This document shows, piece by piece, positions 16,167 through 31,439 of a stretch of 64,000 nucleotides of DNA. The notes below the pieces were generated by a model that was given only the letters and a program-made list of their open reading frames with translations, made no database searches and had not been told where the DNA came from. Numbering within the stretch: the first letter of the stretch is position 1; every line of letters begins with the position of its first letter. The DNA comes from Campylobacterales bacterium (lineage in GTDB: Bacteria; Campylobacterota; Campylobacteria; Campylobacterales; Sulfurimonadaceae): NCBI GenBank assembly GCA_016938735.1, contig JAFGUB010000008.1, forward strand, positions 62,001 to 126,000, written 5' to 3'. The position numbers and the translations under genes are program-made.

Positions 16167-16711
16167 TGTTTGAAGCCACAACGATTCTAGCCTACAAAAG
16201 CCAGAAGGGTGCGGTCATCGGTGGGGACGGTCAAGTCACCTTCGGTAATGCCGTGCTCAAAAACAATGCCACCAAGATCAGAACCCTCTACAACGGACAG
16301 ATTCTGGCCGGTTTTGCGGGCTCGACCGCCGATGCCTTCAATCTCTTTGATATGTTTGAGGAGCAACTCTCCCAACGCAAAGGTGATCTGGTCAAAGCGG
16401 TCATCGATTTTTCCAAAGCGTGGCGCAAAGATAAAGTCCTGCGCCGCCTTGAAGCCATGATGATCGTGCTCAACACCCGCCACATCTTTATCCTGACTGG
16501 AAACGGCGATGTCGTCGAGCCTGAAGACGGCGAAATCGCCGCCATCGGCAGCGGAGGCAACTTCGCCATCGCTGCCGCCCGTGCCCTCGAAGCCCACGCC
16601 GCACTCGACCCACAGACCTTGGTCTTTGAAAGCCTCAAAATTGCCGCCGATCTGTGTATCTACACCAACCACAATATCAAAACGCTAAGCCTGGAGCCAT
16701 CACCCGCATGA
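16166..16711 (+). CDS. hslV: ATP-dependent protease subunit HslV
   Basis: 181 residues with a short propeptide MFEA followed by TTILAYK, so the catalytic Thr becomes the mature N-terminus. GGDGQVTFG and [15 protein letters not shown] are typical. It forms the dodecameric peptidase core that HslU feeds. The stop overlaps the hslU start (ATGA). Confidence 0.96.
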
Positions 16712-18036
16712 ACATGACCCCTAAAGAGATCGTCGCTTATCTCGATCAATATGTCATCGGTCAGCGCGAAGCCAAAAAGACCATCGCCCTAGCCTTGCGC
16801 ACCCGCTACCGCAGGATGCAGCTGGATCCCGATCTGCGCGATGAAGTGATGCCCAAAAACATCCTGATGATCGGCTCAACCGGCGTTGGAAAGACCGAAC
16901 TCTCACGCCGTCTGGCCAAAATGATGCGCGTACCGTTTATTAAGGTTGAGGCGAGCAAATACACGGAAGTGGGCTTTGTCGGGCGGGACGTTGAGTCGAT
17001 GATTCGCGATCTGATGATGACCTCGATGAGCATCGTCAAAGAGGAGTTCTCCGAAAACGCCAAAGAGTCCATGTACGAATTTGTCCTTGAGCGCATCGTC
17101 GAGAAACTGCTCCCACCTCTGCCCTCTCTAGCCACAGATACCAAAAAAGTGCAATACGAAGAGTCCAAAGCCCGAATGCGCCAGCGTGTCATGGGCGGAG
17201 AGATGGACAACCATACCATCGAAATCGAGCTTCCATCAGCGCGCATCGAGTTCAACGACACCAACATGATGCCCGAAATGGCCAAAGTCCAAGAATCCTT
17301 CTCAGCCCTCTTTGCCAACTTGAATAAAGGTGAACGCAAAAAAGAGATGAAGGTGAGCGAAGCCAAAGAGGTGCTTTTAGTAGAAGCGGAGCAGCGACTG
17401 CTGGATATGGAAGCCGTGAAAAAAGAGGCGCTGCGACGAACGGAACAAGGGGGGATCATCTTTCTTGACGAAATTGACAAAATCGCCGTCAGTTCCCGAA
17501 GCGACGGGCGCAACGACCCCAGCAAAGAGGGGGTACAGCGCGACCTGCTGCCCATTGTAGAAGGTAGCAGTGTCAACACCAAATTCGGCACGATCAACAC
17601 CGATCATATCCTCTTCATCGCCGCAGGCGCCTTCCATCTGTCTCGACCCAGCGACCTGATCCCCGAACTTCAGGGTCGCTTTCCGCTGCGCGTGGAGCTT
17701 GAGCCGTTGGATGAAGAGGCGCTGTACAAGATTTTACGCCAAACCAAAAACTCTCTGCTGCATCAATATCAGGCGCTGCTCGCGGTCGAAGGCTTAACGC
17801 TGGAGTTTGACGACGAGGCAGTCCGCGCCATTGCCCGTATTGCCCATAAAGCGAATGAGAAAAATGAGGATATCGGTGCCCGAAGGCTCCACACCGTACT
17901 TGAGAAATTGCTTGAAGATATCAGCTTCAGCGCCGATGAGCAACATGGAACCACCATTGTCATCACGGCAGAGACGGTTCATAAAAAACTCAATATCGTT
18001 ATTGAAAATGACGATCTCGCGCGTTACATCTTATAA
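16708..18036 (+). CDS. hslU: HslU ATPase subunit of the HslVU protease
   Basis: 442 residues from ATG 16708, chosen because it forms an ATGA overlap with hslV; an upstream in-frame start at 16654 lies inside hslV. It begins [19 protein letters not shown]. Walker A is GSTGVGKTE, Walker B is [11 protein letters not shown], sensor regions follow and the protein ends DDLARYIL, the tail that inserts into HslV. The I domain lies near 110-230. Confidence 0.97.
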
Positions 18037-18047
18037 AAGGCATCCCT

Positions 18048-18926
18048 ATGAGCAAAGCCGGATTTGTAGCCATCATCGGACGTCCCAACGCCGGTAAAAG
18101 CACCTTGATGAACCATCTTCTGGGCGAAAAGATCGCCCTCGTCAGCCAAAAAGCCAACGCCACCCGTAGACGCTCTCGCGCTATCGTCATGCACCATGAC
18201 GATCAGATTATCTTCGTCGATACGCCAGGCTTGCACGAAACGGAAAAGATGCTCAACAAGTTTATGCTTGAAGAGGCACTAAAAGCAATGGGTGATTGCG
18301 ATCTGATCTTATTTTTGGCTCCTGCATCGGATCATTTAGGCGATTACGAAAAATTTCTCAAACTCAACGCCGGTCGCAAAAAGCATATCGTCGTACTGAC
18401 CAAAATCGATCAGATCAGCCAAGAGGCACTGCTCAAAAAAATCCTGCAGTACAACGCCTACAGCGATCAATTTGAGGCCCTTATTCCCTTCTCTACCAAC
18501 AAAAATGTGGGTAAAAACGACCTGCTCGATACCGCAGCGCGCTATCTCGATGAATCGCCCTACCTCTTCGACCCGGAAGATTTAACCACGGAGCGGCTGC
18601 GCGACATCTACAAAGAGTTCATCCGCGAAGCCATCTTCGAAAACATCAGTGACGAGATTCCCTACGAATCCGACGTCATTATCGACGCTATCGAAGAATC
18701 GGAGACGATAGAGCATATTCGCGCCACCATCGTCGTCGAAAAAGAGAGCCAAAAAGGGATTATTATCGGTCAAGGCGGCAGCGCCATCAAACGCATCGGC
18801 AAAGATGCCCGCGTAAAAATCGAACAACTCAGCGGTATCAAAGCCTATCTGGAGCTCTTCGTCATTGTACGCAAAGGATGGAGCAGCGATAAAGAATTTC
18901 TGAATGAATTGGGATACGAATGGTAA
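18048..18926 (+). CDS. era: GTPase Era
   Basis: 292 residues: GRPNAGKSTL (G1), DTPGLHET (G3), VLTKIDQI (G4), then a C-terminal KH domain with IIGQGGSAIKRIGKDAR. It binds 16S rRNA in 30S maturation. It follows hslU by 11 bp and overlaps the next gene by 7. Confidence 0.97.
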   Translation: MSKAGFVAIIGRPNAGKSTLMNHLLGEKIALVSQKANATRRRSRAIVMHHDDQIIFVDTPGLHETEKMLNKFMLEEALKAMGDCDLILFLAPASDHLGDYEKFLKLNAGRKKHIVVLTKIDQISQEALLKKILQYNAYSDQFEALIPFSTNKNVGKNDLLDTAARYLDESPYLFDPEDLTTERLRDIYKEFIREAIFENISDEIPYESDVIIDAIEESETIEHIRATIVVEKESQKGIIIGQGGSAIKRIGKDARVKIEQLSGIKAYLELFVIVRKGWSSDKEFLNELGYEW

Positions 18927-19882
18927 AGTTTTTTGTAGCGATATGCATGTTTTACGCCCTCTATGCCACTGAAGAGCCGGCGCTGATCTATCAGGCACAG
19001 GGAGTCGAAGCGCTCACCCAAGCACTTGATCGTGAACTGGCCGGCAAAGCATTCTGGGAGCGGCACTTAAATACTCTTGATACTACCTACGGCTATCTCG
19101 AAGGCCGTGATGCATTGCTTACATGTAATAAAAAAGAGGGCAAGCTCTATTATCATAAACGACAAAACAATGGCAGCTTCAAAACCTTACTTCAATATGA
19201 TGCGCTTTTAGGCAAATCCACCGGTGACAAGCAGATCGAAGGAGACCATAGAACCCCTATCGGCATCTACACGCTAACCCAAAAACTCGATAAACTCGAC
19301 CCCTATTACGGCCCGTTGGCCTATGTCACCTCTTATCCCAACCTTTTTGACCGCATTCGGGGCAAAAACGGTTCCGGAATCTGGATTCACGGAGTACCTG
19401 AAAACACGCTTCGTGAAACGGCGACCAAAGGGTGTATTGCATTAGAAAACAGCGACCTTCGTACACTAGATGCAACACTTGACATGAAGCATACCTTGCT
19501 TGTCATTGATGAAGAGGTCAAAATAGATATTGACAAGGAGCAACTCGCCACTCTTTTAAGCCAGCTTTTTGCATGGCGCCTTGCATGGCTGAACAATGAT
19601 CTTGAAAGCTACCTCTCTTTCTACGATGCACGTTTCAAACGCTTTGACGGAAAAGACCTCGATGCTTTTAGGGCTTACAAAAAGCGCATTTTTGCTAAGG
19701 ACGAGCCTAAGACTATCTACTTTAGTAACGTAGCGGTTTTGCCCTACCCAGGTGAAGAATCCGATCGCTACTTGATCACATTTCACGAAAGATACTTTGC
19801 GAGCTCATATCAGTTCGAAGGTGAAAAAACATTGATCACAACACTTGAAAACGCAAAAATGCGTATCATTGCGGAACAATAG
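18920..19882 (+). CDS. Csd6/Pgp2-like L,D-carboxypeptidase (YkuD fold)
   Basis: 320 residues with a short signal peptide (1-16). A YkuD catalytic domain spans about 70-200 with DHRTPIGIYTLT, then GIWIHGVP and the catalytic TKGCIAL. The C-terminal third resembles the NTF2-like domain of Helicobacter Csd6. In Helicobacter and Campylobacter this enzyme trims peptidoglycan tetrapeptides to tripeptides and sets helical cell shape. TTACATGTAA at 19119 gives LLTCNKK. This is the last exact palindrome before an 11.7 kb gap. Confidence 0.82.
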   Translation: MVKFFVAICMFYALYATEEPALIYQAQGVEALTQALDRELAGKAFWERHLNTLDTTYGYLEGRDALLTCNKKEGKLYYHKRQNNGSFKTLLQYDALLGKSTGDKQIEGDHRTPIGIYTLTQKLDKLDPYYGPLAYVTSYPNLFDRIRGKNGSGIWIHGVPENTLRETATKGCIALENSDLRTLDATLDMKHTLLVIDEEVKIDIDKEQLATLLSQLFAWRLAWLNNDLESYLSFYDARFKRFDGKDLDAFRAYKKRIFAKDEPKTIYFSNVAVLPYPGEESDRYLITFHERYFASSYQFEGEKTLITTLENAKMRIIAEQ

Positions 19883-20003
19883 ACTCAACTTTTTCAACTA
19901 AAAGCCGATATGATTTATAGTCATGGTACAAATATTGCTATGATTCGTGAGCTACAGCATCTATAAACTTACGATAACAGATAACTCATCAAAGTTTATT
20001 TTA

Positions 20004-20012
20004 TGCTATGAT
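20004..20012 (+). promoter_or_regulatory. Extended -10 promoter for the Msh/Cts-like operon
   Basis: TGC-TATGAT is an extended -10 element 28 bp before the first gene, followed by a GAGG ribosome site at 20032. The 158-bp gap holds no other gene and is AT-rich. No clear -35 was seen, which is usual for sigma70 promoters in this phylum. Confidence 0.45.
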
Positions 20013-20039
20013 AAGCACTATCTTCAAAGATGAGGACCT

Positions 20040-21575
20040 ATGAGTAAAAGTACCAATCCATTTTCCACTATTCTCTCTATTAATCCTTATCAAAAAACGT
20101 ATTATGTAAGCACAGGGACGCAAATAGGGGCCGAGAAGAAGCCTATCTACCAGAAAAATCAATACGTCATCTCCTTTATCAATACTCGAAATTTCATCAC
20201 TGCAATGATCGGCATCAGCAAAAATATTGCCGAAGAAGATATCTACGACGCTCTTGAGAACAAAGTCTATGACGAACTGGCACTCGATCTTGCGGTTGAA
20301 TACAAAATCAAATACATTCCTGCACACGGCATCACTGATGGGAATGATCAATTTTTTCACGTGTTTATCGTCGATCCACTCACACTAGAAGAAGAGTTCA
20401 AAGAAGCTGTTGGAGCCTTAAAGTATATCGATCTTATTGTCCCTCTTCCCCTTCTGTACACACCGCTCTATCATCAGCAGCTCATCGATGACAGTGGCCT
20501 TCACGTCTTCATCTATTTTCAAGAGAATGACGCATCTTTAACCATTTTCGATCATCAAAACTTTGTCTACACCAAATCGCTTAAGTACTCTTTCAAACAG
20601 ATGCACGAGCGTTTTATCGAACTATTGGGTGAGCAGATACCGTATAATCAGTTTCTGACCATGCTCCAAGAATATGGGCTTGGTGCTGTCGACAGCGAAC
20701 ATCAAAAGTATCTCATCAAGCTATTCGGCGAACTTTTTTTACACATCAATGATGTCCTCACCTATGCCAAACGCGCATTCGAAATCACACAAATTGATCA
20801 TCTGTACATCGGATCTCTGATCGGCTCGATAGCCGGCCTTGATGAATATGCGCAAACCTATCTTGGACTTAGAAGCTCACTTTTTGAGTTTGAATATGGC
20901 TTTAGCGTCAGCAATACGGGACCGGATCAAATTCATGCATTGATGCAGCTCTATGCCAAACTTGATCCGAGCGCCCAATATGACTGCAACTTTTCTGAGT
21001 ATCATAGACCTCCACCATTCGTCAAACGAGAAAGCGGTAAGCTCATTATGCTTAGTGCGGCATCCCTAGTTGGTGCCATGCTCTATCCCACAATCTACTG
21101 GACGATGGATTATGCAGAGAAGTTGCATCTCAACCTCCTAAACACCCAATATCGTGAACTCCACAATCAAAAAATTGAGCGTGAAGCAATCATCAACATC
21201 AAGCTAAGTGAACAAAAGCGCTACGAAACGCTTTACAATGAAGAACATCAAGCATTTTTGAAAACCAAGCAGACTTTGACATCAATCCATGAAGTGAAAG
21301 TCAATTACCCCATGAAAGCGAAACTCCTCTCCTATTTTACAAACGACTTTAATCGCTTTGATATACTCCTCCAATCAGTCAGCTACACAGAGACTGAGGG
21401 GAAAACTAAGGCTTTTTCATTTCATTTAATTGCTAAAAACGACAAGCAATTGACTGATCTACTCAAATATCTCACTGCCACACATGCTCAAAAATACATG
21501 TTCAGCATGGATAAAATCTCTTTTATCGAAGAAGAGAAGCATTACAACAGCGAGCTTAAGGCGGTATTACGATGA
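20040..21575 (+). CDS. MshI-like pilus/competence protein (PilM-PilN type)
   Basis: 511 residues. The first ~310 residues look like an actin-fold PilM-type cytoplasmic domain (weak). One transmembrane segment lies at about 335-355 (IMLSAASLVGAMLYP), then a coiled coil (365-420) and a PilN-like periplasmic domain. This M+N fusion layout is that of MshI. First gene of a nine-gene run with 4-base or shorter overlaps. Assignment rests on position and topology more than sequence motifs. Confidence 0.65.
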   Translation: MSKSTNPFSTILSINPYQKTYYVSTGTQIGAEKKPIYQKNQYVISFINTRNFITAMIGISKNIAEEDIYDALENKVYDELALDLAVEYKIKYIPAHGITDGNDQFFHVFIVDPLTLEEEFKEAVGALKYIDLIVPLPLLYTPLYHQQLIDDSGLHVFIYFQENDASLTIFDHQNFVYTKSLKYSFKQMHERFIELLGEQIPYNQFLTMLQEYGLGAVDSEHQKYLIKLFGELFLHINDVLTYAKRAFEITQIDHLYIGSLIGSIAGLDEYAQTYLGLRSSLFEFEYGFSVSNTGPDQIHALMQLYAKLDPSAQYDCNFSEYHRPPPFVKRESGKLIMLSAASLVGAMLYPTIYWTMDYAEKLHLNLLNTQYRELHNQKIEREAIINIKLSEQKRYETLYNEEHQAFLKTKQTLTSIHEVKVNYPMKAKLLSYFTNDFNRFDILLQSVSYTETEGKTKAFSFHLIAKNDKQLTDLLKYLTATHAQKYMFSMDKISFIEEEKHYNSELKAVLR

Positions 21576-22204
21576 CCCACCAGATAGAAAACAGCCTCCA
21601 TAAAATTGATCAAGCATTCGCGCAAAAGGACCCTAAAGAAGTACTCATGCTCTATGTCATGATTGCTGCGGTGCTCTTTGCGCTGTCCTATTTCCTCTTT
21701 TGGGAAAGCGCCGAAGCGAGCTTCAATGCCACACGAGCACAAGTTGTCGATGTGCAGAATAAAATTTCAGCAGATCAAAGTTTTTTAAATGCCAATCCTC
21801 CGGCTTTGATTACGCAGATCGAGGCAAAAACTGAGTCACTCAAACAAGAACTCACCAAAACGCAAGAGCAGAATCAATACATCAAACATCAGATTGAGCA
21901 AATATCCGAGCTTTATTACGATGAAGTGGCATGGGGGGAGTATATCAATTCGATTTCAAAACATGCAAAAGTTGAAACCATCCACCTGCTCGAACTCAGC
22001 AACAGCATCGCTAATGTAGGCGAGTCATTCGGACATGTCCTAGACATTACAATTAGAGCCGATGCCCCATACAAAAATCTACTCAAATTTATTAATCAGC
22101 TTGAGCAAAGTGCTTTAGTCGTCGATTTACATGAATTCAGAATCACTGCCGACAAAACATTGACCGCCGATCTTAATATTTCAGTGTGGGGGATTAGCTA
22201 CTAA
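21572..22204 (+). CDS. MshJ/PilO-like inner-membrane protein
   Basis: 210 residues: cytoplasmic stub (1-22), one transmembrane helix (about 25-45), coiled coil (50-120) and a small C-terminal ferredoxin-like domain (130-210), the PilO/GspM plan. It would form the inner-membrane alignment complex with the MshI-like protein. It overlaps upstream by 4 bases and downstream by 1. Confidence 0.65.
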   Translation: MTHQIENSLHKIDQAFAQKDPKEVLMLYVMIAAVLFALSYFLFWESAEASFNATRAQVVDVQNKISADQSFLNANPPALITQIEAKTESLKQELTKTQEQNQYIKHQIEQISELYYDEVAWGEYINSISKHAKVETIHLLELSNSIANVGESFGHVLDITIRADAPYKNLLKFINQLEQSALVVDLHEFRITADKTLTADLNISVWGISY

Positions 22205-22641
22205 TGAAACATTTCATACTTACGCTTATTCTTAGTGTCGGTATCGTCTACGCGTCAAGTACAAATGAATTGTCTTGGGTTGATGATCAAATTAAGGCTA
22301 TTAAGCCGCCAAGGGTAGGGATTCAAGCCGGTTATATCGATCTACTTAAAGACCCGATCCGATTAGTTCAAGAGCGAAACACAACGAATACAACCCCTTC
22401 CGTACATTACGTAACGTCTGGAAAGGTTGACCGAATGCTGCATCTAAGACCACTCACTCTTGAAGCCATCATGAACGGACGAGCTTACATTAGCGGTGTC
22501 TGGTATCGTATTGACGACAAAGTACAACATTCGATCCTCACATCGATCGAAGAGGACCATGTCGTATTGACAGAGAAAAATAAAAAGACGCGCCTCTTTG
22601 TCAATCCGCAAAATAACAAAATCAAAATCACCAAACGATAG
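22204..22641 (+). CDS. MshK/CtsR-like periplasmic protein
   Basis: 145 residues with a signal peptide (1-17, ending VYA). The C-terminal half (LEAIMNGRAYISGVWYRIDDKVQHSILTSIEEDHVVLTE) matches the PilP/GspC homology-region pattern that contacts the secretin. Placed directly before the secretin as mshK and Campylobacter ctsR are. Function inferred from context. Confidence 0.6.
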   Translation: MKHFILTLILSVGIVYASSTNELSWVDDQIKAIKPPRVGIQAGYIDLLKDPIRLVQERNTTNTTPSVHYVTSGKVDRMLHLRPLTLEAIMNGRAYISGVWYRIDDKVQHSILTSIEEDHVVLTEKNKKTRLFVNPQNNKIKITKR

Positions 22642-22649
22642 GATCTGAC

Positions 22650-24248
22650 ATGACACGATTTTTGCAAAAACAGTATTCAAAAACGGCAATGGCATTGATG
22701 ACACCGCTGTTTCTATTCAATCTTCTTCAAGCTGACTGTTCTTATCAGCTTTTTAGTGTCACCTCTGCCAAGGGAATTACGATTGAAGAGTTTATCGACG
22801 AGCTCAGCAATAGTTGTGACTACACTGTAGTCATTGCAGATCCCGAAGCGCGCAAGATTATCAAACAGCAACTTCAGAAAACAACACTAAAAAACCTTAC
22901 GATCGACGAAGTACTTGAAGTGGTCTTACTAGAGAATAATCTAACCTACAAGCTTGAAAACAACGTTTTGAAAATATCTTATCTCATTACCAAAACTTTC
23001 CAGCTTGACTATCTTATCTCCAAACGTACCGGCAAGGGAAGCACAGATATAACCCTAAGCTCGAAAACTGCGCCAGCCGGCGGCGTCAGCGGTAGCACAA
23101 CGCTCGCCGGCGGTCAGGGCGGAGGAAACGACTCCCAAACAGGTATCACGATCGAATCAGAAGATGAAGTGCAGTTTTGGCATGAGCTTGATCTGGAATT
23201 TGAACGCGTCTTAAACCGTCCGCAAGACGACTACAAGGCAGATGCCCCAATCATTAATAAAAATGCCGGCATGGTTACAGTAACCGCAACACTCAAGCAA
23301 CTAAAGCGCCTTGAAGATTATATTAGCCATCTACAAGCCAAGATGCAGCAGCAGGTATTGATCGACGTCCACATGCTCCTTGTCACATTTAACAAATCCA
23401 AGACGACCGGAGTGGATTGGTCTCAGCTGTATGCTTTGCAAAATGTCAAGATTGGTGGAGAATATTTGTCAAAATCTAACGTTGTGGAGTGGGAAGGCAA
23501 CACAATCTCAACAGTAGGCAACCAAGCCAAAAATAATGCTTCTATACTCAAGCTCACTGCAGGAGAAATTAGTCTTAACGAGGTGATAAAATTTCTCAAA
23601 ACCCAAGGCGATGTACACACTGTCTCCAATCCAAAAGTTTTAACCCTGAACAATCAACCTGCCTTGATTACTGTCGGAACAGAGTACTTTTACAAAATCC
23701 AGCAATCCTCCAATCAACAAGGCTCCGGCGGTGGGGTTGCGGCGACTACCCAAAACGATATCGTCAACTCCGTCTTCGCGGGTGTTTTGCTTGACATCAC
23801 ACCCGAAATTGCCAACGACCGAACCATTACACTGAAGATCAATCCTTCAGTCTCACGAACCCGTGAAGATCTTGCGGCGCAAACCGAAGGGGGCAGAACT
23901 ATTCCCCCCGATCTCGACCGCAGACAGCTTGCATCGGTTGTTACTGTAAAAGATGGAACTCGGGTCATTCTGGGAGGGCTCATCAACCAAAACAACAATA
24001 CGGTAGAAAATAAAGTCCCTTTGCTTGGGGACATTCCTGGTCTGGGCTATTTTTTTAAATATGAAAAAGATACGGTATCCACAGAAGAGCTCATTGTTGT
24101 GATCGAACCACATATCGTTGACAAGTCCAAAAACACACTCTCATTATCACAATTAGGTTATGAGCGTATCGATCCCGCTATTATTCGCGCATCATCTGAG
24201 CCAAAACCTGCACTCCCTGCTGACAGCCAAGAGTCTAATGGAAAATAA
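22650..24248 (+). CDS. mshL: Secretin of the MshL/CtsD type
   Basis: 532 residues. A signal sequence ends near residue 30. An N0/STN-like domain follows (35-110), a Gly/Ser/Thr-rich linker (130-165), then the secretin domain with VLIDVHMLLV, SNPKVLTLNNQPALI and the signature VPLLGDIPGLGYFFK near 470. It forms the outer-membrane channel for a pilus or pseudopilus. No lipobox is obvious. Its end overlaps the ATPase gene by 11 bases. Confidence 0.88.
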   Translation: MTRFLQKQYSKTAMALMTPLFLFNLLQADCSYQLFSVTSAKGITIEEFIDELSNSCDYTVVIADPEARKIIKQQLQKTTLKNLTIDEVLEVVLLENNLTYKLENNVLKISYLITKTFQLDYLISKRTGKGSTDITLSSKTAPAGGVSGSTTLAGGQGGGNDSQTGITIESEDEVQFWHELDLEFERVLNRPQDDYKADAPIINKNAGMVTVTATLKQLKRLEDYISHLQAKMQQQVLIDVHMLLVTFNKSKTTGVDWSQLYALQNVKIGGEYLSKSNVVEWEGNTISTVGNQAKNNASILKLTAGEISLNEVIKFLKTQGDVHTVSNPKVLTLNNQPALITVGTEYFYKIQQSSNQQGSGGGVAATTQNDIVNSVFAGVLLDITPEIANDRTITLKINPSVSRTREDLAAQTEGGRTIPPDLDRRQLASVVTVKDGTRVILGGLINQNNNTVENKVPLLGDIPGLGYFFKYEKDTVSTEELIVVIEPHIVDKSKNTLSLSQLGYERIDPAIIRASSEPKPALPADSQESNGK

Positions 24249-25047
24249 CTTTTTTGCAAAGCCCAAGGAGGTTTTTCTGGATGTTGTCAACGCTAAAGAT
24301 TACATCCAGCTTGACAGCGTCTCGACCATCTATCAGTCTCTAAAAGATTCCGTTAAAAAGCCTCTGAAGATGATACTGCTGTTTGGTCGTCCCGGTACGG
24401 GTAAAAGCATGCTCTTAAATAAACTACATCAAGATCTATCGCAATATCAAAAGGTCGTTATTTACAATACACCCATTGTTGATGAAGAGGATTTTTTACG
24501 CTCGTTAGCACGCGATCTCTACGATGTCAACACGCCTTCAAGCCTTAACTTTACACGCTTCAATGAACTCTCTAACCACTATCGGTTTGACTCCGTTCCT
24601 CTGGTTTTGCTGGATGAAGCACAACTGTACACCTCTGCATTAATGGAAAAAATCCGTCTTCTTTCCGATTCCAGAAAAATCAAATTCGTGGTCACATTGC
24701 ACAAAACAGAAGAGGAAGACCTAATCGCCAAAGAGCATTTTCAAACCAGGATTTGGGAAAGCATAGAACTCAAAAACTCTTCCCACTCAGAATTGAAAAT
24801 ATACATTCAAAAAAAACTGATGAAAGCGAACTGCTTCGATATTGCCAATATGTTTGACGACAACAACTCAAAACTGATTCACACCATCACACGCGGAAAC
24901 TACAGAGATACCAATAAGCTGCTTTTTTCACTTTTCCATATTCTTAGCTGGTATGAAGAGCACAAGCCAAGTAAAATTAGCTACCACAGAGTGCCTCACA
25001 AGATCATTGAGATGGCTGCACTAGACACAGGTTTTTTACGTGCGTAA
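24238..25047 (+). CDS. MshM/ExeA/CtsP-like AAA ATPase
   Basis: 269 residues from ATG 24238 inside the secretin end; an in-frame start at 24160 would overlap more. Begins MENNFFAKPKEVFLD; Walker A FGRPGTGKS near 50, Walker B LVLLDEAQLY near 125. ExeA/MshM ATPases help assemble the secretin; in Campylobacter CtsP is needed for DNA uptake. The ribosome site is weak, so coupling to the secretin is likely. Confidence 0.75.
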   Translation: MENNFFAKPKEVFLDVVNAKDYIQLDSVSTIYQSLKDSVKKPLKMILLFGRPGTGKSMLLNKLHQDLSQYQKVVIYNTPIVDEEDFLRSLARDLYDVNTPSSLNFTRFNELSNHYRFDSVPLVLLDEAQLYTSALMEKIRLLSDSRKIKFVVTLHKTEEEDLIAKEHFQTRIWESIELKNSSHSELKIYIQKKLMKANCFDIANMFDDNNSKLIHTITRGNYRDTNKLLFSLFHILSWYEEHKPSKISYHRVPHKIIEMAALDTGFLRA

Positions 25048-25822
25048 TATTCATGAACTTGAACGACAATGGATTCGGTACAAGATCCGTTCATATGCAC
25101 CTTGGATTATCACCCCGATCACACTTTTGACGCTTGGAATAGTTGGGTACCTAATGGTTCCTTCTCAAGCAGACTTGTCTTCGTCCGTCTTGCCTACTCC
25201 CGAGTCAATCGAACAAACGCCACTCTCAAACTCTGTAGCAGCAGCATCATCTTCTTCAGTACCCGCCGTCAGCATACCACCTTCATTAGCACCTGAAGCA
25301 ACCGTTGCCACGTTTGCATCACCCGTCTTGACACCTTCGCTCAACTTCATCGAACGGTTAAATCAAAAATCGGTATCTTCCGCCTCATCCGTCCTGATTA
25401 CATCACCATCGCAAGAGTCATCTTCAAGTGACAACCATTCCAAAACAATTATCCAGCCATCAGTCGATCTCTCTAAAGTGTCTGAGCAGCAACATATATT
25501 GACTATAGGGACGAATCGTGACGACAATGATATTGAAGAGGTCATATCACGATTCAAAACAAATAAAAAACCGGCACTCAGCCTCTTCGTCGCCAAACGA
25601 TACTATGCAATGCGGCAGTACCACGACGCCTATAACTACGCGCTCATTACCAATGAACTCGATTCTGAAAACGAAGAGAGCTGGTTGATCGCGGCCAAAG
25701 CACTCGTGAAGCTAGGGGACAAAGAGAAAGCCATGCATCTGTTGAACAAGTTTATCGCCCGTTCTGACTCCGTTCGCGCCAAAATGGTATTGGCTCAAAT
25801 TGAAAACGGTACGCTTGAATGA
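25040..25822 (+). CDS. MshN-like membrane-anchored TPR protein
   Basis: 260 residues from GTG 25040, overlapping upstream by 8 bases. One transmembrane helix at about 20-37, a long Ser/Pro/Ala-rich periplasmic linker (45-150), and TPR-like helices at 165-260 (ALSLFVAKRYYAMRQYHDAYNYA, then AKALVKLGDKEKAMHLLNKFI). Equivalent in place to MshN; it may also correspond to Campylobacter CtsX. Confidence 0.6.
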   Translation: MRNIHELERQWIRYKIRSYAPWIITPITLLTLGIVGYLMVPSQADLSSSVLPTPESIEQTPLSNSVAAASSSSVPAVSIPPSLAPEATVATFASPVLTPSLNFIERLNQKSVSSASSVLITSPSQESSSSDNHSKTIIQPSVDLSKVSEQQHILTIGTNRDDNDIEEVISRFKTNKKPALSLFVAKRYYAMRQYHDAYNYALITNELDSENEESWLIAAKALVKLGDKEKAMHLLNKFIARSDSVRAKMVLAQIENGTLE

Positions 25823-26364
25823 AGATTTTCTGGCCATTGCTCTTTCTCTTTAGCTTTGCTTTTGGTGACCCAAAATCCGATCTACTCGATTTATTCAAAA
25901 ATGAGGAGTACAAGTCGGCCTGCAGTACGGGCATGAAATACTACTCTCAATATATGCAAGATGAAGAGTATATTACACTCTATGCCTTCTCCTGCCTCCG
26001 ATCCGATTACATCGATCGACTTGCCGTACCTATTTCAGGATTGAAGCACACATCCGAAGCTAGGGCCAACGCAGCCTATTTTGCCGTTATTTTGCTACAA
26101 AAAAAGTTTCTTTATCATGCGCTTATCGATGGATACGATATGGGCACACTAAAGCTCCCAACGACTGATTATGTGCTTTCAAAAGTGTTTGACCTTTACA
26201 TGTATGATCCGCAAAAAACTCAAAAAACGGCTTGGGAATATCAAGACAACACAGAGCAAGAAAAACATTACAAACTCTTTGTCGATCGTGAATCCAAACC
26301 GAAAAAAATCGTCATTGAAGTCTATCAAGAGGGTATAATGACCTCTCGCCATCTTTACTGGTAA
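25819..26364 (+). CDS. Exported protein of the Msh/Cts-like locus, unknown
   Basis: 181 residues with a signal peptide ending AFG near 16. Helical middle part (SDLLDLFKNEEYKSACS, LYAFSCLRSDYIDR) with three cysteines, and a C-terminal beta segment (KKIVIEVYQEGIM). No family recognised. MSHA operons do not have a gene here between mshN and mshE, so it is a lineage-specific component. ATGA overlap with the TPR gene. Confidence 0.65.
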   Translation: MKIFWPLLFLFSFAFGDPKSDLLDLFKNEEYKSACSTGMKYYSQYMQDEEYITLYAFSCLRSDYIDRLAVPISGLKHTSEARANAAYFAVILLQKKFLYHALIDGYDMGTLKLPTTDYVLSKVFDLYMYDPQKTQKTAWEYQDNTEQEKHYKLFVDRESKPKKIVIEVYQEGIMTSRHLYW

Positions 26365-26374
26365 ATGAGCCATC

Positions 26375-28111
26375 ATGGATAGAATCACTTTAGACCTTAT
26401 CTCTAAAAACCATCTAACCCAGCAACAGGTAGAGCGTCTCACCTCTCGAGGAGTGGGTGACGACACCGTTTTAGAGACCTTAACCAAAGTGAGTGCGGTC
26501 TCACTCAATTTTCTTAAACGTTTTATTGTTGATCAGATCCGCAGCGGCAGGTACGACCTCTCTATCATCAAAAATTATGTTTTTTTAGATGAATCCTCCG
26601 TCTTGGAGCATCTGGCTCAAGTTATGGAGATTCCCTTCGTCGATCTCGACTCAATCGATCTTGATTATCGACTTTCCGAGCGTATACCGATTGCACAGCT
26701 GAAAAAAAACAGTGCATTGCCTGTCTCGCAAAGCGATATGCACGTCAATGTGGTCTTTTCGGATCCACTCAACATCCAAGCCCAAGAGGCGATTCAGCGT
26801 CTCTTTCCGCGCAAGCCGATCAAAGTGCAGGTTGCGACCGACAAACAGATTCAATCCTATCTGTTTAAATTGGAGATCAAAGACAGCGTCAAAGAGCTCG
26901 TCACCAACATCCGCTCCGAACTCAACTCTATCGCCTCACTAGAGGAGCAGCAAGAGGCTTCCTCTATTTTACAGCTCATCGATGTCATCCTCAAAGCGTG
27001 CATCAACGGACGCGCCAGCGATATACATGTAGAACCGACAGAGAAAAACTGTGTGGTACGGGGACGCGTCGACGGTAAACTGGCGGAGATCTTCATTTTC
27101 GACAAAGACATCTACCCGCCGCTGGCATCGCGTCTGAAACTCCTTGCCAACTTAGACATCGCCGAAAAACGCAAGCCCCAAGACGGAAGATTCTCCGCCA
27201 ACGTCAAAGACCGAGAATTCGACTTTCGTATCTCCACACTCCCGATTCTCTACGGAGAATCAATCGTTATGCGTATTTTGGATAAGACCAAGGCGCTCAT
27301 CAAACTTGAAGATGCGGGGATGGACGAGGCCAATTACAAGAAGCTGCATACCGCGTTACAGTCACCTTTTGGCATCATACTGGTCACCGGACCTACCGGA
27401 AGCGGTAAAACAACGACACTCTATGGAGCACTCAACGAACTGCGCTCGGTTGAAGAGAAAGTTATCACCGTTGAAAATCCGGTAGAATACCGAATGAACC
27501 TCATCCAGCAGGTACAGGTCAACGCCAAGGTTGGACTCTCTTTTGCCGATGCGTTGCGCTCTATCCTGCGCCAAGACCCGGATAAAATCATGATCGGTGA
27601 GATCCGCGACCACGAAACACTCGAAATCGCCATCAAAGCGGCACTTACGGGCCACCTTGTCATCTCTACACTCCACACCAATGATGCCATCAGCGCCATC
27701 CCGAGGATGATCGATATGGGCATCGAACCTTATCTCATCAGTGGTGCTTTAGTCGCCATTCAGGCCCAAAGGCTGGTGCGCAAAATCTGCTTACACTGCA
27801 AAAAAGAGGTCTCAATTCCCAAAGCCGTCGAAGAGCGCTACCACAAATTCATTCCCGAGCACACCCGTTTTTATGAGGGAGCCGGCTGCAAGGAGTGTAA
27901 TGGAAGCGGCTATATGGGACGCGAAATGATCAGCGAAGTACTGCCGATTTCAGAAGAGATCTCAAGCCTGATCGCCAAGGGTGCCTCCAAAGACGAAATT
28001 CACGCCCAAGCGGTCAAAGAGGGGTTCACCGATATGTTTGCAAGTGGTATGAAAAAAGTCGTCAACGGCATCACGACCATTGATGAGATTCTAAGGGTGG
28101 CAAAAGGATGA
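26375..28111 (+). CDS. GspE/PilB-type assembly ATPase (MshE/CtsE)
   Basis: 578 residues: an N-terminal T2SSE_N-like domain (60-150), then the ATPase domain with GPTGSGKTTTLYGAL (Walker A, about 335), IMIGEIRDHET (Walker B), LHTNDA (His box) and a zinc tetracysteine, CLHC and CKEC. It powers pseudopilus extension from the cytoplasm. Overlaps the next gene by 4 bases. Confidence 0.92.
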   Translation: MDRITLDLISKNHLTQQQVERLTSRGVGDDTVLETLTKVSAVSLNFLKRFIVDQIRSGRYDLSIIKNYVFLDESSVLEHLAQVMEIPFVDLDSIDLDYRLSERIPIAQLKKNSALPVSQSDMHVNVVFSDPLNIQAQEAIQRLFPRKPIKVQVATDKQIQSYLFKLEIKDSVKELVTNIRSELNSIASLEEQQEASSILQLIDVILKACINGRASDIHVEPTEKNCVVRGRVDGKLAEIFIFDKDIYPPLASRLKLLANLDIAEKRKPQDGRFSANVKDREFDFRISTLPILYGESIVMRILDKTKALIKLEDAGMDEANYKKLHTALQSPFGIILVTGPTGSGKTTTLYGALNELRSVEEKVITVENPVEYRMNLIQQVQVNAKVGLSFADALRSILRQDPDKIMIGEIRDHETLEIAIKAALTGHLVISTLHTNDAISAIPRMIDMGIEPYLISGALVAIQAQRLVRKICLHCKKEVSIPKAVEERYHKFIPEHTRFYEGAGCKECNGSGYMGREMISEVLPISEEISSLIAKGASKDEIHAQAVKEGFTDMFASGMKKVVNGITTIDEILRVAKG

Positions 28112-29355
28112 AGTATTTTCAAGCAACCGTTTTAGTCAAAGGCAAAAAAAACGTCTATGGACTCTACGCCGAAACCAAAAAAGAGGCGCAATACGCTGCC
28201 AAGATCAAATATCCCGGTATCGTTTTGAAAATCGTTGAGACCAAACCCCCGCTCGAAGAACAGTGGCGCCGTTTCAAAGAGAACTTCTCCAAAAACGCCA
28301 GAAAAAAGAAGCTCAAGCAAGACGCGCTCATCGCCGCGATCCGTCAGCTTGCGGTTATGGCCAATGCCGGTATCTCCATTCACGACTCACTCAAGGAGAT
28401 CGCAGACGCCACTACCGATAAAAACCTTCAAAACATTCTAACCAGCATTGCCGATGATATCAATGCCGGTTTAAGTATGTCTCAATCCATGGAAAACTAC
28501 CGTTTTCAACTAGGTAACTTAACCTTAGCGATGATTGAGCTTGGAGAGAAAACAGGTAATATGGCCAAATCCCTGCATAAACTGGCCGATATGCTTGAGG
28601 AGATCCGGCGTAATATCATCAAATTCAAAAAAGCGATGGCCTATCCGCGTAACGTTATGATTGCGATGGCGGTCGCTTTTACCATTCTGATCTCTTACGT
28701 CGTTCCACAGTTTAAGGCTATTTTCGAATCACTCAATGCCGAACTACCGATGCCGACCAAAATTCTGCTTTTTCTTGAGAATATCTTTAACAATTATGGC
28801 CCTTATGCCTTGGCGATTTTGATTGTCGGCGTGATGATCTTTCGCTATATGTTGCAACACTCCACCTCTTTTCGCTATGGATGGCATAAATTTTTGCTCA
28901 AAACGTACCTCATCAACAACATCATCATGTTTGCTACTCTAAGCCGATTCACTCTGGTCTTTTCGGAACTGGTACGCGCCGGTATCCCTATTGCCGAAGC
29001 GCTTGAGACGGCTATTGCCATGACCGACATCCTGCCGCTTAAAGAGAGGCTGCTGGGGGTGCGCTCTACCGTCGAAAAGGGGGGTGCACTTTACAAGGGG
29101 CTAGAAGATACAGGACTGTTTGAAAATATGATCATTCAGATGATCTCTGCCGGAGAATCCAGTGGCCAACTCGATGCAATGCTTGACAAGGTCAATGACT
29201 ATTATAAAATGCGCTTTGATGCCATTATCGACGGCCTCTCCGAGGCGATCGAGCCGATCATGCTCTTTATCATCGCGGCTATGGTCATTTTGCTCGCGCT
29301 GGGGATCTTCTTGCCGATGTGGGATATGGGCAACGCGGTTCAGGGACGCCGCTAG
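28108..29355 (+). CDS. GspF/PilC-type platform protein (MshG/CtsF)
   Basis: 415 residues with two T2SSF domains, LRQLAVMANAGISIHDSL-like near 80 and RFTLVFSELVRAGIPIAEALETA near 285, and three membrane helices (about 185, 235, 390). It is the inner-membrane platform for the assembly ATPase. It ends the operon and overlaps the convergent uvrD end by 4 bases; no pilin gene follows. Confidence 0.92.
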   Translation: MKYFQATVLVKGKKNVYGLYAETKKEAQYAAKIKYPGIVLKIVETKPPLEEQWRRFKENFSKNARKKKLKQDALIAAIRQLAVMANAGISIHDSLKEIADATTDKNLQNILTSIADDINAGLSMSQSMENYRFQLGNLTLAMIELGEKTGNMAKSLHKLADMLEEIRRNIIKFKKAMAYPRNVMIAMAVAFTILISYVVPQFKAIFESLNAELPMPTKILLFLENIFNNYGPYALAILIVGVMIFRYMLQHSTSFRYGWHKFLLKTYLINNIIMFATLSRFTLVFSELVRAGIPIAEALETAIAMTDILPLKERLLGVRSTVEKGGALYKGLEDTGLFENMIIQMISAGESSGQLDAMLDKVNDYYKMRFDAIIDGLSEAIEPIMLFIIAAMVILLALGIFLPMWDMGNAVQGRR

Positions 29356-31439
29356 TCTTCATCCTCACCCTTCTCTTCGCCTTTAGCGACGAGCATGGCA
29401 TAGACTTCATCTTTACTCAGCAATCCTGCCTCATACAAAAACTGCGACGCTAAGAAATCGCTCTTTTTAATCTTGTCATATTTGGCGTAACTCAGATACA
29501 AAATCTCTTTCGCCCGTGTCACTGCCACATAAAAAAGCCTCCGCTCCTCATCTAAACTACCGCCGCGACTCATCAGTTTGCGGTTGGGAAAACGTCCGTC
29601 CATCAGATCGATCACATAGACCTCTTCATACTCAAGCCCCTTGGAAGCGTGTATGCTTAGCAGATGTACCCCTTCGCCTTGGGTCAGATCTTGCGAACCC
29701 AAAATCATCGCATTCAAAAAACGCTCATGCTCTTTATAGGGCTTGGCCAACTCGGAAAGGACTTTTGTTTTACGCATAATGCGCTCATGTGCGGCGGTTT
29801 TGAGCGCCTCATCAATGGAGCCATTTTCGAGTTGTGCGCGTTTAGTGCAGAGCTGCTCCACGATATGTTGATAGAAGCGCGACTGCGCAATCCGCTCCAC
29901 CACATTTTGCGGTTTGGCGATGGCGGTGAGGGTCTGAAAGAGCAAGTAGCAGTCATAAAGATATTGCGCACCGTCTTTACTCAGTTTGGGATGTTTTAGT
30001 ACCGGATTTTTCATAAAGTTTGCATCAAATCCCAAAAGTGCAAATCGCCCGGCTGAACCCAGCTCGGCAAAATCATCAAAAAGTCCAAGCTGTTGATTAA
30101 GCTTGCGTTTTTCAAAGGGGTTGCTAATGGAGAGATCAGGCTTGTAGAGTCCGCGCAACATCGAACCTCCGCCCAGACGCTGCAAGGCCACAAAAAGCTC
30201 CTTGGCCACCGCGCTGCCCATCCCTTTAGCATACTCAAAGAGGTGGATAAAGGCCATCATGTCATGCTCATTGATAAGCAGGGTATAACAATCGAGCAGC
30301 GCTTTAACCTCTCTGGCATCAAAAAAGCTGGTTCCGCCCCTGCGCCGACAGGCAATCCCCTTTTCGCGCAGCGCCGCCTCGATCCCATCGGCTGAAGCGT
30401 TATTACGGAAGATTACGGCAATTTCATCATGCTTGGTTTGTGACGTACCGATCAACTCGGCGATCCCGTGGTACTGATCAAAAAGCTCCTCATACACCAA
30501 CAATTTTGGCGGTGCAGCTTCATGCGTGCGGGTCACTTCAAGCGATTTGGGGTAGATGCGCTCGTTGTAGGCGATGACACGATTGGCCAGTGAGAGAATC
30601 GGCACCGTCGAGCGGTAATTCTTTACCAGCGTATAGATCTGCGCATCGTCAAATTTTTTGGCAAAGGAGCCGATAATCGAAATATCGGCACCGTTAAAGG
30701 CGTAGATGCTCTGATCGTAATCCCCCACGCAAAAGAGTGAATCCGGGCGCATTGCATCGATGAGGGTGCCTTGAAGCGCATTGGTGTCTTGATACTCATC
30801 CACCAGCACCTCTTTATAGCCAAGGCTTACATGTAAACAAAGCGTGCGCATCTGCAGCAGCAGATCATTGAAGTTCAAAAAGCCGTAGGTGGTTTTGAGC
30901 TGCTCAAACTCTTCGACAATGTCGGCATAAATCAGGGCGTAGGGCTTGTGCTCCTCTTGCTTACATGTAACCCACGCTTCAAAATCGCCGGAGAGTTCTG
31001 TGTTCTGAAAAAAGGAGTAGAGATCATAAAGATAATTCGCCCCATAAGGTGGCACACTGTCGATCAGATGATCAAAAGAGCGCTTCTCATAAACGCTGCG
31101 AAAGAGGGTTTTGAGTTCGCGCTGCTGCTTGAGCACTACCTTGCCGTTGTGGCGCTTGAGCCAGCGGTAGCTCACGGCATGAAACGTACCCGCATCGATC
31201 GAAGCGGCCACCTCTTTACCAAAAAAGAGGGCCAGACGCTCGATCATCTCCTGCGCCGCCTTGTTGGTAAAGGTGAGCAGCAAAATCTCCTCCGCCTTAA
31301 TGCCATGCTGGAGCAGATAAGCGATGCGCCCGACAATCGTAGAGGTTTTGCCGGTTCCGGCGGAAGCAATAATGAGATTGTGTCCAAAGGGAGCCATCGC
31401 AGCGCGAAGCTGCTCGGTATTGAGTCGTGATAGCGGCAA
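29352..31439 (-). CDS. uvrD: UvrD/Rep/PcrA-family DNA helicase
   Basis: 695 residues, superfamily 1A: ASAGTGKTST (Walker A, 26-35), LLTFTNKAAQEM, VDEYQDTN, GDYDQSIYAFNGA, and LLSIHASKGLEYEEVYV near 600. It acts in repair and replication restart. The start is TTG at 31439 with AAGGAG five bases away, both inside a hairpin-forming region. Two TTACATGTAA copies 134 bp apart (30827, 30961) encode CLHVSLG and VTCKQEE. Confidence 0.93.
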   Translation of the reverse strand: MPLSRLNTEQLRAAMAPFGHNLIIASAGTGKTSTIVGRIAYLLQHGIKAEEILLLTFTNKAAQEMIERLALFFGKEVAASIDAGTFHAVSYRWLKRHNGKVVLKQQRELKTLFRSVYEKRSFDHLIDSVPPYGANYLYDLYSFFQNTELSGDFEAWVTCKQEEHKPYALIYADIVEEFEQLKTTYGFLNFNDLLLQMRTLCLHVSLGYKEVLVDEYQDTNALQGTLIDAMRPDSLFCVGDYDQSIYAFNGADISIIGSFAKKFDDAQIYTLVKNYRSTVPILSLANRVIAYNERIYPKSLEVTRTHEAAPPKLLVYEELFDQYHGIAELIGTSQTKHDEIAVIFRNNASADGIEAALREKGIACRRRGGTSFFDAREVKALLDCYTLLINEHDMMAFIHLFEYAKGMGSAVAKELFVALQRLGGGSMLRGLYKPDLSISNPFEKRKLNQQLGLFDDFAELGSAGRFALLGFDANFMKNPVLKHPKLSKDGAQYLYDCYLLFQTLTAIAKPQNVVERIAQSRFYQHIVEQLCTKRAQLENGSIDEALKTAAHERIMRKTKVLSELAKPYKEHERFLNAMILGSQDLTQGEGVHLLSIHASKGLEYEEVYVIDLMDGRFPNRKLMSRGGSLDEERRLFYVAVTRAKEILYLSYAKYDKIKKSDFLASQFLYEAGLLSKDEVYAMLVAKGEEKGEDED

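Follow-up and report, generated by a model that had tools for sequence, protein, structure and literature searches.

A nine-gene Msh-type locus beside era in a Campylobacterales genome, a candidate DNA-uptake engine related to the cts genes of Campylobacter jejuni

Introduction

The described systems closest to the locus examined here are the mannose-sensitive haemagglutinin (MSHA) pilus operon of Vibrio cholerae and the cts transformation genes of Campylobacter jejuni. In V. cholerae, nine genes run from mshI to mshF in the order mshI-J-K-L-M-N-E-G-F (PMC4624765), and mshE, G, L and M are given as four of the five mandatory MSH pilus genes (PMC6668835). Our locus occupies positions 20040-29355 of a 64,000-nucleotide stretch of a Campylobacterales genome (the window, whose numbering is used for all positions). 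Compared with the V. cholerae operon it keeps the same order from I to G, with I, J, L, M, N, E and G of matching kinds (PMC4624765), but it carries an extra gene, x, before E and no adjoining pilin operon, the next gene lying on the other strand. With C. jejuni Cts it shares six genes in the same order, each of them matched, and a pilin-like gene beside priA; C. jejuni-type loci, unlike the window locus, have no I, J or x within the run, and era is not in the flanks that were read. No paper arguing for a relation between cts and MSHA was found in the open literature searched, which did not cover the original cts papers. Gene names in use nevertheless suggest such a relation: in a C. hepaticus table the secretin of the transformation locus is called mshL/ctsX/gspD (PMC6371046), and genes of C. 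ureolyticus have been named MshL and MshM (PMC3758288).

We propose, with a probability of about 0.65, that the locus is a less-reduced relative of cts whose products form an envelope-spanning engine for a DNA-uptake type IV (pseudo)pilus. The locus is a candidate for this role because its secretin appears orthologous to CtsD and because its other genes match cts genes singly.

Results

Gene content of the locus

Nine open reading frames (ORFs) on the + strand fill the interval in the order I-J-K-L-M-N-x-E-G, as follows.

20040..21575, + strand: gene I (MshI position), 511 aa; from the ORF list, an AlphaFold2 (AF2) model and fold matches in the PDB
21572..22204, + strand: gene J (MshJ position, PilO-like), 210 aa; PF04612 (T2SSM) 1.2e-5 and PF04350 (PilO) 4.1e-4, both below cut-off
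22204..22641, + strand: gene K (MshK position), 145 aa; HHalign match to CtsR
22650..24248, + strand: gene L, MshL-type secretin, 532 aa; PF00263 1.2e-46, TIGR02519, secretin tree
24238..25047, + strand: gene M, AAA ATPase (MshM position), 269 aa; PF13401 (AAA_22) 2.4e-13, HHalign match to CtsP
25040..25822, + strand: gene N, tetratricopeptide repeat (TPR)-like protein (MshN position), 260 aa; PF12895 4.4e-8, HHalign match to CtsX
25819..26364, + strand: gene x, likely exported TPR-like protein; alignments, AF2 model
26375..28111, + strand: gene E, extension ATPase, 578 aa; PF00437 (T2SSE) 1e-130, PF05157 (MshEN) 1.6e-17
28108..29355, + strand: gene G, inner-membrane platform (PilC/GspF family), 415 aa; PF00482 (T2SSF) 3.8e-52

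Since the ORFs overlap at six of the eight junctions, the nine genes are likely an operon; scans for promoters and terminators gave results near chance level. The gene order is beyond chance, because the same arrangement reappears next to era over the phylum sample: among 20 compared loci, which were hand-picked over families and genera around gene-M matches rather than drawn at random, era adjoins the related genes in 19 (L085 being the exception), and hslU was seen in 18. An earlier note, made from the letters of this DNA without database searches, had claimed both this Msh order and the lack of pilin and prepilin peptidase genes. The order is borne out by the ORFs, their domains and the recurrence beside era, and there are indeed no pilin or prepilin peptidase genes within 20040-29355, the pilins being found elsewhere in the genome.

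At the level of domain families mshE, G, L and M are all present. The T2SSE domain of E scores 436 bits and is accompanied by an MshEN domain, and L reaches 259.7 bits against the NCBIfam MshL family TIGR02519, above the cut-off of 250.2. This naming was rejected as a means of separating MSHA from Cts, since C. jejuni CtsD scores higher still (330.5). Gene M likely starts at ATG 24238 rather than at 24160, and of its 407 matches in a PDB sequence search, the best 60 brought up generic AAA proteins. For genes I, K and x, domain profile searches returned no family match over cut-off. The AF2 model of gene I (predicted local distance difference test, pLDDT, 86.9) consists of a PilM-like actin-fold domain, a long helix and a small alpha/beta domain, and its best PDB matches are Pseudomonas aeruginosa PilM (5eou, E 1.6e-14); reading the alpha/beta domain as PilN-like, we infer from the model that I is a PilM fused to a PilN. 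Gene x has a C-terminal beta part, with Cys 35 and Cys 59 invariant in the alignments, and although its model is confident (pLDDT 92.3), no PDB fold match was obtained at E<=0.001.

Correspondence with the cts genes

A scan of contigs with four M proteins from g15, the C. jejuni group, recovered 14 loci, all of them from Campylobacter and the best from C. jejuni (f and g codes are working family and genus labels). The C. jejuni locus, L214, is a single run K-L-M-N-E-G of 103/470/202/195/519/393 aa, to be compared with published lengths of 105/472/202/195/519 aa for CtsR/CtsD/CtsP/CtsX/CtsE (PMC8308473). In two loci of this group, L135 and L215, ctsP was read as a 167-aa ORF and not as one of 202. 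From the gene run of L214 together with the profile matches we take CtsR to be K, CtsD L, CtsP M, CtsX N, CtsE E and CtsF G, so that, as judged by these comparisons, the run R-D-P-X-E-F is matched one by one by K-L-M-N-(x)-E-G.

In HHalign, CtsR aligned to K at 99.1%, CtsP to M at 99.8% and CtsX to N at 99.8% (L138, whose start is uncertain, was left out of the CtsX set), while the same three on the remaining genes tested, out of I, J, K, M, N and x, gave at most 11.4%. Gene N also weakly matches the CtsX family in Pfam (0.0028), and gene G matches the profile of C. jejuni G at 3.9e-72. The Msh and Cts profile searches that the earlier note had proposed thus place L over the MshL cut-off and tie K, M and N to CtsR, CtsP and CtsX. 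Its suggested parallel between K-L-M-N/x-E-G and ctsR-D-P-X-E-F holds as to order, and the choice that it had left between N and x falls to N: gene x was rejected as CtsX (6.6% versus 99.8%) and has no counterpart in the cts run. Because x occurs in both locus types, being present also in several MSHA-type loci, it is probably a general accessory rather than specific to competence.

In the 11 genomes of g15 the cts run holds the sole extension-type ATPase, and neither gene I nor an ATPase of PilT grade was found in them, the best second match being 3.1e-12 as against 1e-36 to 1e-45 in other genomes. Each of the 15 genomes of family f3 examined likewise has a single extension-type ATPase, and none was seen with both loci; therefore no second locus was seen there that could have been the source of cts, which adds to the case for an era-linked origin.

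Two Msh-type loci in one genome

Five ATPases of the extension type and two that are PilT-like are encoded in the window genome. Besides the era-linked locus, this genome holds a second locus, L059, on contig C3 (C3:22001-42000), which has the order I-J-L-M-N-x-E-G and pilin-like genes on both sides: four lie upstream, and two lie downstream, separated from the locus by a large gene (1317 aa or more). Of four of these pilins compared with Pfam, two pass the N_methyl cut-off, one falls below it and one has no match. With eleven further pilin-bearing loci that were read, it makes up 12 MSHA-type loci, a label that means that pilins adjoin the locus, so that their presence there is by definition. 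K was unrecognised in L059 and recognised in nine of the 12. The C3 locus and its relatives share the window order, x included; unlike the window locus, they have pilins on both sides, an E/G clade of their own and cyclic di-GMP (c-di-GMP) motifs in E.

Trees were built from rows passing length filters (54 for E, 52 for L, 49 for G), with L085, L135 and L147 left out. The G tree and a second E tree dropped the rows of type II secretion system (T2SS), HEL and orphan sets as well as L139 and L153, the second E tree dropped RED16 too, and the M tree had 39 rows, six of them from the cts set (CTS). The secretin tree places CtsD with the era-linked Campylobacteraceae loci (96/96) and rejects a clade of CTS with ten MSHA-type rows (p 0.00029). 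Ten of the 12 MSHA-type rows form a clade in it; the other two, from f5, fall near the era-linked secretin of that family. In the E and G trees the MSHA-type rows make one clade (100/100), and the G tree sets CTS with the era-linked Campylobacteraceae (88/99, not starred). It is thus the secretin tree that supports an orthology of cts to the era-linked locus, with CtsD as the likely orthologue of its gene L, rather than to the MSHA-type paralogues.

A second difference between the two types concerns E. With a relaxed form of the published c-di-GMP-binding motif, the definition and pattern of which are given in PMC5013675, at least one motif was found in all 12 MSHA-type E proteins (two motifs in six of them, and in all 12 once the turn glycine was also relaxed), in one of 18 of the era-linked set and in three of five of a mixed C-type set; none was found in CTS (0/9), RED16 (0/2), HEL (0/3), the orphan (0/1) or the T2SS-like set (0/3). 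In the window E no N-terminal c-di-GMP motif was found, its best partial match being equalled by 87 of 100 shuffles; it thus differs from MSHA MshE, whose tandem motif was not found in it.

Pilins and other uptake genes

The genome yields 17 pilin matches by N-methylation motif. These general matches, rather than an MshA-specific profile, are what the unlinked pilin candidates are seen by; no MshA pilin lies in the locus. Three pilins stand immediately upstream of priA on contig C24, and comEC starts about 3.8 kb after the end of priA. In C. jejuni, efficient uptake requires Cj0683, which stands ahead of priA and is pilin-like at its N-terminus (PMC10046745). A survey of 60 chosen, non-random genomes (two sets of 30), using a test that combines motif and hydropathy, found pilin-like ORFs before priA in 37 of the 41 that do not belong to family f2 and in none of the 19 that do, 11 of these 19 being g19. 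A strict co-occurrence of priA-linked pilins with the locus was considered and dropped, as it is not clean.

One f2 genome, G167, has a locus I-J-K-L-N-E-G. Ahead of it, on the other strand, stand a pair of PilT-like genes, four pilins (two of major type, two of minor type) and one small gene. Among the 17 pilins of the window genome, the four G167 pilins have as best full-length matches two on C24 and two on C9. The missing pilus subunits thus probably lie, by these resemblances, beside priA and in a minor-pilin operon on C9. A minor-pilin pair like that of C9 was seen in all 30 best loci, two of which are the query genomes. Overlapping the C9 operon is a gene for a 2194-aa Calx-beta protein (L249:2128-8712), a candidate pilus-tip adhesin.

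The genome has one prepilin peptidase match, with both domains, and the earlier note's suggestion to look for comEC and dprA outside the locus found both. That note had also held that an MSHA pilin cluster elsewhere, together with a lack of comEC and dprA, would tell against uptake; such a cluster exists in L059, and comEC and dprA are there. Neither gene was kept as discriminating evidence, dprA being present in 10 of 10 genomes tested. As to the remaining extension machinery, L058 (C50) and L060 (C53) are T2SS-like sets whose secretins resemble GspD but narrowly miss its cut-off, and whose matches to GspK are weak and also below threshold. An extension-type ATPase on C49 (L062:6956-8704) has no secretin or platform match in 18 kb and, by eye, hydrogenase-maturation-like neighbours.

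Genomic context and conservation

The locus is flanked in the window by the following genes.

16654..19882, + strand: hslU, era and csd6-like genes, upstream; ORF list, domains and compared loci
29352..31439, - strand: UvrD-type helicase gene (named by eye), convergent neighbour, found also at 8 of 20 compared loci

Of the 298 genomes sampled from the phylum, 172 contain a match to the window M, a count that includes weak and MSHA-type M matches. Each of the 27 genomes sampled from the family to which the window belongs has a close E, with a best E-value no higher than 6.1e-286, and none of the 23 genomes of g19 in f2 has an E match better than 1.4e-14. The GC content is 0.41-0.47 over the locus and 0.46-0.58 in adjacent blocks; a recent horizontal gain, which this dip might suggest, was rejected, the synteny being phylum-wide.

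Several loci depart from this arrangement. An extra ORF of about 430 aa stands directly before gene I in L067, L068, L069, L071, L072, L073 and L074 and is absent from the window (19882-20040). In family f5 (L083, L147, L149) the era-linked locus ends after N; E and G are absent beside era in L083, and in G006, of the same family, x-E-G lie together at another chromosomal site. L084 has an unmatched 423-aa ORF at the expected site of G. L140 and L141 (f3, g16) hold a reduced I-J-K-L-E-G, without M, N and x, and era was not in the flanks read. Elsewhere in the window, 51051-53825 encodes a protein of 924 aa, judged by eye to be a secreted lipoprotein-like one.

Discussion

The gene identities, their conserved order, the correspondence with cts and the presence of the other genes are computed results. 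As for assembly, pilin partnership, retraction and DNA as the cargo, we infer the following course. Pilins, supplied by unlinked genes (the three beside priA, on the contig of comEC, and the minor-pilin operon on C9) and matured by the prepilin peptidase on C28, would be polymerised by the ATPase E and the platform G. The PilM/PilN/PilO-like proteins I and J would, with K, connect this engine to the outer-membrane secretin L, and M with the TPR protein N might assemble or gate the envelope channel, x being a putative exported accessory. Retraction, probably by the PilT-like ATPases on C8 or C27, would draw DNA through L to ComEC, with DprA taking over inside. The earlier note's proposal of a DNA-uptake machine is in this way strengthened by the secretin tree, comEC, dprA and the prepilin peptidase, uptake itself being a conjecture from kinship.

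A number of results pull the other way. Function is carried over by homology only. The Cts profiles score alike on the K, M and N of MSHA-type loci (98.7, 99.9 and 99.7%), CtsP being by profile scores if anything nearer to MSHA-type M than to era-linked M; the HHalign matches were therefore rejected as proof of the locus type from which cts came, and as profile comparisons they speak for a kinship with Msh components of either type. Nor do the E, G and M trees decide the placement of cts. In the E tree the p values are 0.175 for grouping CTS with MSHA-type and 0.058 for grouping it with the era-linked Campylobacteraceae, and without long rows this tree puts CTS beside MSHA-type (90/83; p 0.346 for the alternative); CTS with MSHA-type is unrejected in the G tree (p 0.166), and in the M tree p is 0.323 for MSHA-type and 0.107 for Campylobacteraceae. 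Pilins at priA are confounded with phylogeny, eight of the 19 f2 genomes having an extension ATPase; G144 (f3, g9), one of the 37 genomes with a priA-linked pilin, has no ATPase match better than 4e-43, and dprA is carried by G021 and by G144, neither of which yielded an extension ATPase. Without the N-terminal helix the G167 pilin matches are weak, three of four keeping their partner and one changing. Finally, the position of the 2194-aa Calx-beta protein before the minor-pilin operon suggests adhesion.

This last point bears on a different reading, in which the type IV pilus made by the locus serves chiefly in adhesion, twitching or biofilm formation (on surfaces of sulfur or minerals, for instance), DNA uptake plays a minor part or none, and the function of cts is a later specialisation of C. 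jejuni. In 25 of the 30 best loci the minor-pilin pair has a long ORF next to it on the upstream side, which in the window genome is this Calx-beta protein; two PilT-like ATPases are available in the genome, and Sulfurovum indicum raises a protein named MshL, from either locus type, on elemental sulfur (PMC10045233). We nevertheless regard this reading as unlikely, given that E, unlike that of the sister MSHA-type locus, has no detected c-di-GMP motif, that in C. jejuni-group genomes (11 of 11) no extension-type ATPase was seen outside the related cts run, and that the pilins stand beside priA with comEC shortly beyond. The locus might also be a duplicate MSHA engine that uses the pilins of the C3 locus, and the nearly identical gene order, x included, and the finding of a single prepilin peptidase would fit; this seems improbable when the MSHA-type rows form their own clade in the E and G trees (and ten of 12 do so in the secretin tree), when G020 keeps the era-linked locus without a second extension ATPase, and when the G167 pilins are, over their full length, nearer to those of C24 and C9 than to those of C3. 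A type II protein-secretion machine, although its core is homologous, is very improbable indeed, for L scores 160.9 against the 351.35 required for GspD and E 529 against 630.25 for GspE while L passes MshL, the locus has no GspG-K genes, and the genome has two separate T2SS-like sets on C50 and C53 (their GspK matches below cut-off).

If DNA uptake is the function, one could tentatively speculate on its history. The ancestor of Campylobacterota may have had two Msh-type machines, one of MSHA type whose ATPase binds c-di-GMP and a sister beside era, devoted to DNA uptake and supplied by priA-linked pilins, with C. jejuni competence as a stripped remnant of the second that shed the PilM/N/O-like genes, x and PilT; we hold this to be somewhat less probable than not. 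As part of that history, E of the era-linked locus could conceivably have been uncoupled from c-di-GMP.

The comparison ties CtsR, CtsP and CtsX of C. jejuni, which are poorly understood, to the Msh components K, M and N. This kinship may explain why a survey found no CtsP or CtsX in Aliarcobacter (PMC8308473), as distant homologues could be missed, although no Aliarcobacter genome was identified here. V. cholerae deletions of mshM and mshN are described in PMC4624765 as leaving pilus production like that of the wild type, and both genes are yet kept in C. jejuni; M and N may therefore serve DNA uptake rather than pilus assembly. With pilin candidates now named, competence in free-living Campylobacterota becomes testable, including in vent members, for which a passage of PMC10092268 states that nothing is known about competence. 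And if the ancestor did possess two machines, competence would be an old property of the phylum, its free-living lineages included.

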